A stretch of DNA of 64,000 nt from Pontederia crassipes (lineage: Eukaryota; Streptophyta; Magnoliopsida; Commelinales; Pontederiaceae). Positions 5,176-58,283 of the stretch are shown here, piece by piece. How positions within the stretch are numbered: the stretch's first letter is position 1; every line of letters starts with the position of its first letter. The stretch lies in assembly GCA_030549335.1 (NCBI GenBank), contig CM060190.1:49870999-49934998 (forward strand). Reading direction: 5' to 3'. The notes under the pieces were generated by a model. The model had not been told where the DNA came from and searched no databases. It worked only from the letters and a program-made list of their open reading frames with translations. A program made the position numbers and the translations under genes.

Positions 5176-5348
5176 AATAACAACAAAGTCTTATCCCACT
5201 AGGTGGGGTCGGCTACATAGATCATACGACGCCATTTCGTTGATCCATGTTCATAAGATTCGACAGGATTTTATGCTGGCTGTCGGGGCCTAACACAACC
5301 CTCCTCCTTTATCCGGGCTTGGGACCGGCTATAAAATATAGGCGGAGT
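5176..5348 (-). mobile_element. Au-type SINE, copy 1, with 18-bp target duplication
   Basis: On the minus strand this copy runs from AACTCCGCC through a tRNA-like region (GGTCCCAAGCCCGGATAAAG) to TAGTGGGATAAG and a short TTG tail. It is flanked by an 18-bp direct repeat, TATAATAGGACAAAATAA, at 5,158-5,175 and 5,349-5,366. The perfect duplication shows a full-length insertion by target-primed reverse transcription. It is the only one of the five copies that lies outside an intron. Confidence 0.92.
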
Positions 5349-5366
5349 TATAATAGGACAAAATAA

Positions 5367-22104: not shown

Positions 22105-31821
<9,717 letters not shown>

Positions 31822-47736: not shown

Positions 47737-50700
47737 TCATGACAGACCTTGGACTAACACTTTCCAGTACACCTTTCCCATAGATCGAGATCTTAGCGAC
47801 ATAATCTCTCTAATATCAAAAACCTTATTCCTATAACTGCCTTTTTCTTTAGACATTCTTGATGTGCCACTTGTTTCGTCAACTGAACAGCCATTGGAAC
47901 TAATGGCAGCTTCTGTGTTTGCTGCGTTGGACACCTCAATTATCTGATCCAGAATTTCAACTATTTCATTCATTCTAGGCCGTGATTTTGGTTGCTTCAA
48001 CAAGCATCTATTTGCTAAAGTAACTAGCATTTGAACAGATTTTACACAGTATTGTCCCTGAAGTCGTGGATCTACAATCATATGCAATTTTTTGGGATCT
48101 GTTGTGTATGGTCTCACCCAATCCAAGAGATTTTGTTCAGTTCTTGGTAGGTTTCTATCAACAGACCTTCTGCCAGTGAGAATTTCATAGAGGACAACCC
48201 CAAAGCTCCACACATCACTTTTAGCAGTTAATTTTCCAGTATGTACATATTCTGGAGCTGCGTAGCCAACAGTGCCAACAACCTGCTAACAAAAGTCTCA
48301 GCAATAGGTCAGGTTTGCTGATCTAGACAATCTGACAAATTGCATGATTATCAAAATAAATGTTGTGTAAACTACGAAATAAATAAATGCTATGCTGACT
48401 GTTGCGAAAAGACATGAACTCTAAGTTCTGCTCCCATCCAAATACCAGATTAGTCAGGCGTTAATAGCTTTGGACATCGATGAGCTTAGACAAAAAAAAA
48501 GAACATGAACTCCAATTGATAACTTCCCTAGAAAAAGATGCCAACTTTGATGATCCTTCCCAATAGTTTATGCAACCTCCGTAAAAATGATCTTTATCCC
48601 CCAGTGAAAACACTAGTAGTTAACTAAATAGCAATCAACAAAAGCTGAAAAGATAAGATATAACAAGGCAAGTATAACAACATTACTGATTAAACAAATA
48701 TAACAGTAGTATTTGTTACTTATTAGAATGAACCTAGTTAAAAGTTACTACTTTCATGCCTGCTCAAACAATATAAGCTGGTGAGGTTTTCAACAATACT
48801 CATCCAAAAAGATGTTTGATTTCTGTAATATCCACTTATAATATTACAAAATGTCCATTACAAGCTTTTTCTCTTGATGGTCATCTTTGAATGACATATT
48901 TCGAAGCATGAAAGGGCCATCAATTTAAAAAGAAATGATGTAAATCCATATTAACTTACTGAAGTTGAAATGTGGCCAATTCCACCTGCTGGACCATATC
49001 TGACAAAACCAAAATCTGAGAGCTTGCCATTGAAATCTCTGTCTAGTAGAATGTTGGATGTTTTAAAATCTCGAAATATTAGCTGCAACAAATTGTATAT
49101 AGTTTCGTACTAAAGTTAATAATGACAATACAAAATAAACAGCTTTAGTTGCAAGAAGTTACAACGGCATATCTTACGGTTAAAAACTTACAACAACAAC
49201 AACAACAACAAAGCCTTATCCCACTAGGTGGGGTCGGCTACATGGATCATACGACGCATTCGTTGATCCATGTTCATAAGATTCGACATGATTTTATGTT
49301 GGCTGTCGGGGCCTAACACAACCCTCCTCCTTTATCCGGGCTTGGGACCGGCTATAAAATATAGGCGGAGTTTCCTTGGCGCGGCGCCGCGCCGGAGGTC
49401 GTTTGGTCCGCGCGCGGCCGGGCGGCCGCGGCGGGTCGGTCGGTCACGGGTTCGCGGTCGTAACTCTAATTATTCTTCAGAATGGCACAACTTCTTAGTA
49501 ACATTTCTGCTTCATGCAAGATAAGATAAAAGCTAATATTTGCAAGTGCACAAATAAAAATACATGATATACAGGACATCCTCGACTGAAAAAGGTAATC
49601 AGAACGTTAAATTTGAAAAAGGAGTATTGGCTGTATTGCAACTTGAATGTCCAATTTGGCTCATCGCACAATTAGACCAAATTTTAAAAAGGGGTTGTTT
49701 GGTCCTTTTTTTCCATATCTCTAAATATAGTATGAACTATGAAGAGAGATTGACTCCTTTTGTCAACCAATTTTTCACCTTCATGAACTGAAATGGTGTT
49801 GAGAAACTTACAGGGTCGCGAAACTAACTGAGGTGGTGTTAGGAAACTTACAGGGCGACTAAAAAAAAGTTTCCATCTTTCAATTGTGCACAATCCCATT
49901 TCAAAAAGAAATTGCGTTTAGTCCATAAGATAACCTCCATGAGGACTCTGTGATTTCCGTTCATTGCTTGATGACAAGTTGTCGATCAGTAAAAAGTTTC
50001 ATGAACATGTTGAAGAGCATAATATGGAGGTTAATGCTCAAAAAGGTGTTCTAATTGAACAGAAACATCTAATGTATATTGTGGCCATGATTACAATGTA
50101 GCCATGTAAGATGAATAGATTTCAATATTTAATGTAGCACTACAGTTTTTAAGTAAAAGATAGTGACCCTGCTACTTTAGGAGCCTGTGAAATTTGCACA
50201 CTTTACCTTGTGATACAAATAGTCAAATACATATGGTAGTTACCCTTGAGTACAATCACATATTTCCTCTACATTGTGCAACAACTAACATTAGAAGATT
50301 CCATACTTGCAAGTGATTGTCTATCAAACTTTGTAGCGACTTCTTATGCTAGGTACTTTTGTATTAAAGCATTTGGAAGTGTTGGAGATATGTTATGGTT
50401 ATTAAGCAGATGGCCGTTATAATCATCAAAGGGCCATTATGATCATAATAACCATGAAGGGCATATCAAACGTATTTGACCACTATATAAGGGCATGATA
50501 GGGGGACAAATGGCAGTGGACACACGTGGGTACAGTTCAATGTCAAGCGGGATGATACTACCTCCGGATGATCCCCAATATTTTCCACAATTTTTCTTTC
50601 ATTTGCAACATCAAGAGAAATACATAAATCAATGAAGGAATACCTGATATTCCATTTCTTCATGAAGATAAGCCAAACCACGAGCAGCATCTTGGGCAAT

Positions 50701-55900: not shown

Positions 55901-58283
55901 TTTTATCCAATATTTAAGAAAGAAGAAGCAAGTATTCTAGATTGATGCTCTTGAGAAGAAAATTATTCCCTCGATTGGCTGGAAAAATGGCATATATTCT
56001 CTGTTTTACATTTTTATTTGGTAGAGACAAGATCAGAAAAAAAAAGAATGGACGTGCCCTTAAAAAATAAGTAATTTTTTTTTATAACAGATCTTTTGGG
56101 GAAAGTTCTTGTTAAATACATTAAAACTATGCAATAAACATATACTCAGTAAACCTTTTTCAAGGTTTTCCATGGTAATGAAAAGGTTTTAGGGTGGTTT
56201 GGGGAAAACATACCTTAAGTATTTTGAGAGATCTTAAATTATTTGATTTATTTTCTTCAAGAGTTACGCCTATTCAAAAGAAGCTCTATATATGTGCTTT
56301 CATATAGAAGAAATAATAGATGCATGAAAAAACAAACAAATGCACTTAACATATACAAATGAAATATACGATGTCCTTCGTTTTATGTATAAATGACATG
56401 ACGTAGAAGATGTCAATTCTGCTCAATGATGCAAGTGCACAGGTGAAAACCTTTTTTGTCCTTGAGAATCTTGTACTTTCTCCTTTTGAGTCGCAGAACA
56501 TATTTCTAATGAATGGACAACAACAACAAAGCCTTATCCCACTAGGTGGAGTCGGCTACATGGATCATACGACGTCATATTCGTTGATCCGTGTTCATGA
56601 GATTCGACAAGATTTTACGCTGGCTGTCGGGGCCTAACACAACCCTCCTCCTTTATCCGGGCTTGGGACCGGCTAATCTGGCTATATAAAATATATTTTT
56701 TAAAAAGGGCTAATCTGACTATATATAATCATGATATGATAGAAAGTGACCTGAACAGTCTTTCCAAGACCCATCTCATCTGCCAAAATACCATTTAATT
56801 TGTTATTGTACAGAGACAGCATCCATTGTAAGCCGACAAGTTGATAATCTCTTAAACAGTATTTCCAAAAAGGCTCGCATATCCACTGCTTTATTTAATG
56901 AGGATAAATACATTTGTTTGTTGATATTATTTATGACTAGATACCATAATGGAAAATTATTTTGTACTTTATATTAAATTATCAACCTTTAGGCATTGAT
57001 TTATGTTCCATCGTGAGTTTTTATGGGTAATGTGAAGATGAATGCTCAACAGGTCAAGCATTTCTGTTAGTTAGTGTTTCATGCATATTTCATTTTGTTT
57101 TGAAGAATGCATTGAGGAATAGCTCGCTTGAGTTAGCTACTTTGGAGCAAAAGAAAGCTGATGAAAAGGTGCTGAAGTTGCTAGAAGACCATAAGGTTTG
57201 GTACTGTCGCCTTGATCTTTCTCTTGAGTTATGTTGTTGTAGCTGGATCTTTTCACTCATAAAATGCATATGGAATAAAATTACAGGATGAAAAGGAGGC
57301 TGCTCTCAAGAAAATACTTCTGCTGGAAAAGCAACTAGATGCCAAGCAGAAGCTTGAATTGGAAATACAACAAATGAAAGGGCAGCTGGATGTTATGCAG
57401 CATATGGGTGCCAATGAAGATTCAGCTATTAGAAAGAAAATAGAAGAGATGAGTGAGCAACTTAAAGAGAAAATGGAGGAGATGGAAGATATGGAAGCTC
57501 TCAACCAGACACTAATTGTTAAAGAACGAATGACGAGCTACAGGAAGCACGGAAGGCATTGATTGAGGTATGATTTTTTGCCATTTATGTACTATTTTAT
57601 TTGATTGTCATCCCCTAAATTGATTAAAAAAATTTATGGTAATTTTTATGTTTGTATCTCCTCAAAAAAAAAAAATGTTTGTACACCAATATGGAATTTA
57701 TCTTGCTCCCTGTTTCATGTGAGCCTTTTGGATATGATCCTTTCCAAATGTTTCCTTTTTCCAGGGTTTGACAGAAATGTTGAGTGGACGAACACTGATT
57801 GGAATAAAGAGGATGGGTGAAATTGATGACAAACCCTTTCATGCTGTCTGCAAAAGAAAATTTCCAGGAGATGATCCTGATATTAAAGCAGTGACACTGT
57901 GTTCTCATTGGCAAGATGAAATAAAAAACCCTGAATGGCACCCTTTCAAAATTGCCATCATTGACAATCAACCACAGGTAAATGGAATTGCAATGATTTC
58001 ATCCCATAATAAATTAAATTGGCATAATTGTATAATGATTTGCAATTTATTACAGCTAGTCATTCAAGAGGATGATGAAAAGTTGCAGTCCTTAAAAGAA
58101 GAACTGGGTGATGAGGTTTACGACGCTGTTAAGAAGGCATTATTTGAGATGAATGAGTATAATCCAAGTGGTAATTATACTGTTCCAGAGCTGTGGAATT
58201 ATAAGGAGAATAGAAAGGCAACACTAAAAGAAGTTATCCAGTATATTTTGATGCAATGGAAGAAGAATAAGAGGAAAAGGTGA
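52974..58283 (+). CDS. FDM/IDN2-like XS-XH protein of RNA-directed DNA methylation, with frame breaks
   Basis: Family members bind double-stranded RNA and act as dimers in RNA-directed DNA methylation. Exons: 52974-53007, 53785-54643, 55377-55558, 57106-57195, 57287-57567, 57765-57977 and 58056-58283, all GT-AG. XS domain: [51 protein letters not shown] and [11 protein letters not shown] coiled coil follows ([20 protein letters not shown] through [16 protein letters not shown]). XH domain: [26 protein letters not shown]-like acidic stretch, [20 protein letters not shown]. Three oddities. The zf-XS finger lacks its CPxC part ([18 protein letters not shown]). The frame shifts by +1 between HAS (about 53,954) and SNGESR. 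Exon 5 is one base short around [16 protein letters not shown] (about 57,530). It may be a young pseudogene or carry sequence errors. The start could instead be ATG 53,841. Confidence 0.82.
56517..56675 (-). mobile_element. Au-type SINE, copy 5, in an FDM intron
   Basis: It has the same body as the other copies, with a short TTG tail at 56,517-56,530. The 5' end is shorter: the sequence departs from the family after GGGACCGGCTA, so the AACTCCGCC start is missing. No target duplication was recognised. It is antisense to the FDM-like gene. Confidence 0.9.
56751..56856 (-). pseudogene. exon fragment of a BRAHMA-type SNF2 chromatin ATPase
   Basis: The minus strand encodes [20 protein letters not shown], then [15 protein letters not shown], followed by GT. 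This is the start of the SNF2 ATPase domain, with the Walker A motif DEMGLGKT. The wording is that of plant BRAHMA (BRM) proteins rather than of other SNF2 classes. It is preserved without a stop but is only 35 codons, ends at what looks like the original splice donor, and has no neighbouring exons. It lies in FDM intron 3, antisense, 75 bp from the SINE. It is a captured genomic fragment, not a gene. Confidence 0.8.

Follow-up and report, generated by a model that had tools for sequence, protein, structure and literature searches.

How does a short retroposed element in a plant intron come to carry a block of GC-rich sequence at its 5' end? The locus lies in a stretch of 64,000 nucleotides of the Pontederia crassipes genome (hereafter the window), on contig C8 of an assembly of 1.13 Gb in 43 contigs that was searched as a whole. 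On the minus strand, the block is fused in sense to the 5' end of a SINE-like element, CCAAGGA being followed without a gap by AACTCCGCC. Its GC content is 81%, compared with a mean of 36% for the window. We infer that the insertion site is an intron located 5' of a protein-kinase exon, in the same sense as the gene; the Pkinase match of a 40-residue piece of this exon has an E-value of 5e-6 and a score of 26.5 bits, which is below the Pfam cut-off of 31.7. The features concerned are:

49191..49372, minus strand: full-length SINE-like element of about 180 bp, AACTCCGCC ... GATAAGGCTT(TTG)n
49373..49461, minus strand: ITS1 piece, 89 nt of the genome's own pre-rRNA, with its 3' end in the A3 motif (CCAAGGA)
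49372..49373, minus strand: join of the two, which is also the predicted twister cleavage point (at the presumed cleavage site)
49318..49377, minus strand: type-P1 twister match over the SINE 5' end and the join (61.9 bits, E-value 8e-14; below the gathering score of 67.2)
48961..49085, minus strand: protein-kinase exon, with a translation running to SDFG

A search of the genome with the GC-rich block, in which all candidates were scored, gave 10 matches: the window itself, five rDNA loci, one rDNA piece on contig C16, and three short pieces. The ITS1 of the five rDNA loci matches the block with 97, 97, 96, 92, and 76% identity, and since these loci extend from ITS1 into 18S and 5.8S, the block can be identified as ITS1. 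A chance GC-rich block is ruled out by the length and the identity of this match. The initial annotation had proposed a 90-bp block of about 80% GC, taken from the first part of ITS1 and fused without a gap to a SINE. The alignment to the species' own ITS1 bears this out, as the block measures 89 nt and matches up to 97%. Its precise start has to be adjusted: how far inside ITS1 it lies, 16-26 nt, varies with the rDNA copy used for comparison. A 44-nt pattern of 5.8S, searched with up to 3 mismatches, matched at only 3 places in the 1.13 Gb, and the 45S arrays seem to be absent from the assembly or collapsed in it. With so few rDNA units assembled, the ITS1 reference is dispersed rDNA.

The element to which ITS1 is joined is present in the window in four further copies:

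5176..5349, minus strand: ordinary copy with a target-site duplication (TSD) and a type-P1 twister match at 5295-5354 (68.8 bits, above the gathering score of 67.2)
22949..23127, minus strand: ordinary copy with a TSD
30154..30338, plus strand: ordinary copy with a perfect TSD of 17 nt
56517..56675, minus strand: diverged copy with an altered 5' end

An A stands before ACTCC at 37 of the 38 element ends, which places the start of the element at AACTCCGCC. Clear TSDs, with alignment scores of 12-22, were found 0-4 nt from ACTCC in 22 of 30 non-chimeric copies, a sample made of 29 fetched loci (two of them without a start found) and 3 copies from the window. The first ~55 nt of the element match the type-P1 twister ribozyme (RF03160). 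Beyond the copy scoring above the gathering level, seven other places have twister matches of 57.8-62.8 bits, under the gathering score of 67.2, and the matches are weak in the outer stem and at a shortened hairpin. These places include the window chimera, a second fusion described below (L006), L019, L020, L021, and L085. The Rfam scan detected no twister at the gathering level in ten further SINE loci, those that failed the TSD test or the start search, and no other RNA heads at this level in the same ten loci or in L006, L007, and L013. Twister ribozymes cut immediately 5' of the conserved AA in (N)AAC.C.GCC, a position that coincides with the first base of this element, and judging from the match the 5' end of the element may be set by twister self-cleavage. 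A review mentions, as work in preparation, RTE retrotransposons whose 5' end carries a truncated but competent twister (PMC7761336).

This bears on the Au SINE label given in the initial annotation, which we have dropped. Au-like SINEs terminate in poly(T) or in a brief run of T (PMC3747384), whereas this element has a (TTG)n tail, in addition to the twister match at its 5' end. A simple consensus scan of the element gave no convincing pair of A and B boxes: an A-box-like match with 1 mismatch lies at position 133, and B-box-like matches with 2-3 mismatches lie 5' of it, at 24 and 55. ARAGORN returned no hit within the 64-kb window. Plant RTE LINEs terminate in (TTG)n or (TTGATG)n (PMC3747384). 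On its sequence, the SINE-like element is probably not Au and is likely to be RTE-driven.

The fusion in the window is not the only one. Searching the genome for further copies of the join, as the initial annotation had in mind, led to a total of three SINE-ITS1 fusions, that of the window on C8 and two others, and to an ITS1 piece that lacks a SINE:

L006, C11:46829097: 75-77 nt of ITS1 on a full-length SINE
L013, C14:22363308: 49 nt of ITS1 on a SINE reduced to its last ~36 bp and tail, retained only from position 140 onwards
L007, C6:44570726: ITS1 piece without a SINE

The pattern of the join itself was found at two places. A query running from the 18S end to 5.8S matched 12 places, namely five long rDNA pieces, the C16 piece (L008), two pieces from the 5.8S side, and four ITS1-only pieces. 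The rDNA survey spanned part of 18S to ITS2, with 25S and the ETS lying outside it; for the wider query over this whole range, 40 of the 546 candidates were scored, most of the candidates being a 151-bp repeat inside that query. A pattern for the ITS1 end gave 9 hits with up to 2 mismatches, which are the five rDNA loci and the four ITS1-only pieces, and is informative only up to this threshold, there being 18 further hits at 3 mismatches and 26 and 22 hits in the reversed-pattern control. When 14 rDNA-matching places were examined for a SINE (the window and 13 others, C22:4526192 being left out), a SINE was found to abut the rDNA edge in three, all at the same point of ITS1, and the other 11 had none.

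In L007 (1258-1600), the ITS1 piece ends in CCAAG and its 5' side is joined to a truncated repeat (GTTATCAGAGCC...AAGAGTT). The site differs over ~105 bp from its paralog on C5 (L063). The motif AGAGTT directly precedes the same ITS1 start (ACGACCG) in L007 (1495-1500) and in the window (49462-49467); it is part of the repeat in the former and possibly there by chance in the latter.

What the ITS1 pieces have in common is their 3' end. The last letters are CCAAGGA in the window, CCAAGG in L006 (possibly extended by as many as 3 nt), and CCAAG in both L013 and L007, which corresponds to positions 151-155 of the query, and all four ITS1-only pieces thus end inside AAGGAAC. Among the five rRNA matches to the 18S-5.8S query that have their 3' edge inside ITS1, four stop in this motif; the exception is the C16 fragment (L008), which breaks off in ITS1 at query position 113. 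If ends were uniformly distributed over a 185-nt ITS1, three SINE-linked ends would fall in a 7-nt motif with a probability of (7/185)^3 = 5e-5, a rough figure given that the window copy itself raised the question and that three events are a small number. The motif AAGGAAC is given as the A3 site of rice, where circular RT-PCR located the 3' end of the P-A3 intermediate, and it is conserved with Arabidopsis (PMC4743921). The main plant pathway opens with the A3 cut, and RNAs of the P-A3 and 18S-A3 types have been detected (PMC9048941, PMC9090299). By analogy, A3 cleavage would take place at this motif in the present species too, from CCAAG to CCAAGGAAC. The position of the ITS1 ends at this processing site points to a cut RNA end as the template, and the sequences make it most likely that the second template was processed, A3-ended pre-rRNA rather than intact 45S RNA.

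The initial annotation had described the fusion as a likely reverse-transcription chimera and inferred a jump onto unprocessed 45S pre-rRNA, using an AA/GGAA overlap at the join. The chimera is strengthened by the finding of three apparently independent cases, but the unprocessed template is not supported, as the ITS1 pieces end at AAGGAAC. The overlap does not hold either: other copies of the element begin with AACTCCGCC, so the overlap in the window amounts to 1 nt, and it varies among the fusions, being 3 nt in L006 and 0 nt in L013. The latter case implies that pairing at the join is not required. The 5' starts of the ITS1 pieces also vary, at +26 (window), +41 (L006), +65 (L013), and +26 (L007) in the numbering of L048. 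Such differing 5' ends are expected of cDNA halting in a structured, GC-rich template. The start common to the window and L007 suggests a candidate excised A2-A3 fragment; in maize, A2 lies 18 nt past the 18S end (PMC9048941).

Target-site duplications give a further view of how the fusions were inserted. In L013, a duplication matching at 14 of 16 nt flanks the whole composite, 4 nt off the ITS1 piece (there are four extra bases before ITS1), and was equalled by ~2 of 2000 shuffles, part of the tail lying within the stretch that was scored. The test detected no TSD around the window fusion or around L006, their scores of 6 and 7 being equalled by 82% and 62% of the shuffles, respectively. The same test failed in 8 of the 30 non-chimeric copies. 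One of these eight, L036, does on inspection have a duplication, which is separated from the SINE start by a head of ~24 nt. This head appears to have been copied from nearby target DNA, so that here the jump would have been onto DNA instead of RNA; the case suggests that nascent cDNA is able to move to other templates.

We give a probability of about 0.7 to a retrotransposition chimera, in which a LINE reverse transcriptase jumped from the SINE RNA to the 3' end of A3-cut pre-rRNA. The enzyme, probably from the RTE clade, would start on the TTG tail of the SINE RNA by target-primed reverse transcription, and would either reach the 5' end of this RNA (window, L006) or drop off early (L013). 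From there it would jump onto pre-rRNA that had previously been cleaved at A3 in ITS1, landing on the 3' end of the fragment. The target would be the A3-cut ITS1 RNA ending in CCAAGGAA, not uncut ITS1 RNA, and 49-89 nt of the GC-rich spacer would be copied before the enzyme stops. In this account we infer the involvement of an RTE enzyme, the sequence of the steps, and their cellular location, and pre-rRNA and the SINE complex would presumably meet in the nucleolus.

Could the fusions instead descend from one chimeric source, made once (for example by insertion of a SINE in ITS1 at A3) and copied several times? The join is near-identical in the window and L006, and the SINE tree, where support is mostly low, has starred branches that by themselves allow a single origin. 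The two SINE bodies nevertheless have different relatives: that of the window is identical to the ITS1-free copy L021, and that of L006 is identical to another ITS1-free copy, L088, with two rare bases common to both. The two chimeric SINEs are 93% alike and L006 ranks 34th of 37 when seen from the window, in a set of 38 rows from which 4 of 36 fetched loci could not be extracted and with identities that count two flank columns lacking in the chimeras; they are sisters in 0 of 200 bootstrap trees. The ITS1 variant is CCAAACG in the window and L013 and CCCGACG in L006 and L007, the join differs by 1 nt, and the SINE is joined at its exact 5' end in the window and L006 but internally in L013. 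Moreover, a working twister would remove the ITS1 head from a chimeric transcript. These points make a single source scarcely credible, and a single chimeric master copy is contradicted by the distinct SINE bodies, the ITS1 variants, and the truncated SINE of L013. A segmental duplication of the join was also rejected, the window and L006 having only the 256-nt element in common. The different identical partners, the ITS1 variants, and the SINE break taken together indicate that the fusions were most likely made three times, separately. We consider it highly improbable that they are a patchwork made at the DNA level, with scraps of rDNA or cDNA captured beside SINEs during break repair. Two chimeras have no detectable TSD, and L007, where the ITS1 piece adjoins a different repeat and the site is rearranged, has more the appearance of patchwork repair. 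It counts against the simplest version of the jump onto cut pre-rRNA, having the same ITS1 end and yet lying beside another repeat at an altered site. In the three fusions, however, ITS1 lies in sense, at the SINE 5' end or truncation point, with one common end, the TSD of L013 encloses the whole composite, and a SINE is missing from the edge of most rDNA-matching places examined (11 of 14).

Two other alternatives were considered. In one, a plant RNA ligase would act first, linking the ITS1 fragment with the SINE RNA, and copying of the ligated molecule would follow. Such a course of events fits the twister match over the first part of the SINE and the start of the element at the expected cleavage point: twister cleavage leaves a 5'-OH, one of the ends that plant RNA ligases use, which makes prior ligation the more possible. 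Both full-length SINEs are joined at their exact 5' end, and RtcB has been named as one route to LINE-1 chimeras (PMC13174262). However, L013 is joined at an internal SINE position, for which a second RNA break is needed. RNase MRP cuts leave a 3'-OH, so if this enzyme cuts A3 the end would not be the cyclic phosphate that ligation needs. Its action at the plant A3 site is given as possible but unproven (PMC13030585). Overall, ligation as the first step seems unlikely to us. In the other alternative, the enzyme would jump into uncut pre-rRNA at an open stretch beside a GC hairpin, and the common end would reflect RNA structure, not A3. The sequence AAGGAA does lie directly 3' of a predicted GC hairpin, and the join of L006 has a 3-nt overlap, but L013 has none, other open stretches of ITS1 are unused in the three fusions, and the end coincides with a site that was defined independently in rice. 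We regard a jump into uncut RNA as decidedly unlikely.

A jump of the reverse transcriptase onto A3-cut pre-rRNA is a template jump of a known kind, and its ITS1 partner with an A3 end is new as far as we have seen. Titles and abstracts of the open-licence PMC papers searched mention no fusion of ITS1 with a SINE or LINE. Mammalian chimeras with LINE-1 resemble the present ones in that a non-LTR element, either full or truncated, has an RNA at its 5' end, several partners being in sense; the partners include U1-U6, U3, 5S, tRNA, 28S, 7SL, 7SK, Y RNA, and Alu, and the recurrent tRNA halves, U3, and 28S fragments are read there as possible prior cleavage (PMC13174262). The terms "ITS1" and "5.8S" do not occur in the main text of that work. 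In our case, by contrast, the partner is a pre-rRNA spacer, the host is a plant, and the element is SINE-like and probably RTE-driven. The WEIRD-MgSINE and WEIRD-MGL chimeras of Magnaporthe similarly carry another RNA 5' of a SINE or LINE, with TSDs and preferred jump sites, and no microhomology was found in them (PMC2104539). The preferred site there is on the first template (GCC), whereas the constant point here is on the second. SINEs with 5S or 28S heads also have rRNA gene material at their 5' end (PMC13174262), but they are amplified families and the fusions described here are single insertions. Finally, RTE retrotransposons with a truncated twister share the position of the ribozyme at the 5' end of the element (PMC7761336), although the present element is only ~180 bp long and non-autonomous.

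The partner in these fusions would be a short-lived processing intermediate, not a finished RNA, and the fusions appear to be a trace that ribosome production has left in the genome. As the end of the partner lies at a known cleavage site, ordinary assemblies could be mined for the processing sites of plant pre-rRNA, which would be useful for plants in which pre-rRNA processing has not been studied at the RNA level. The fusions also hint at contact between pre-rRNA and the copying of SINEs, a point relevant to the part of the nucleus in which plant LINEs operate. A first base set by the twister, instead of by a Pol III start, would tie these short elements to the life cycle of RTE, and a SINE 5' end set in this way would offer a reason for end-to-end jumping. 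We put forward as a tentative and more general proposal, which may well prove wrong, that A3-cut pre-rRNA is a preferred second template for a plant (RTE-type) reverse transcriptase acting on twister-headed SINE RNA. Insertion would then occur inside the nucleolus or next to it, and the SINE-ITS1 joins of different plant genomes would preserve, through evolutionary time, exactly where pre-rRNA intermediates ended on their 3' side.

Two of the loci fetched for the SINE comparison, L021 (1501-1865) and L043 (1501-1885), each contain two SINE copies within tens of bases of each other, which hints at the repeated use of one site.
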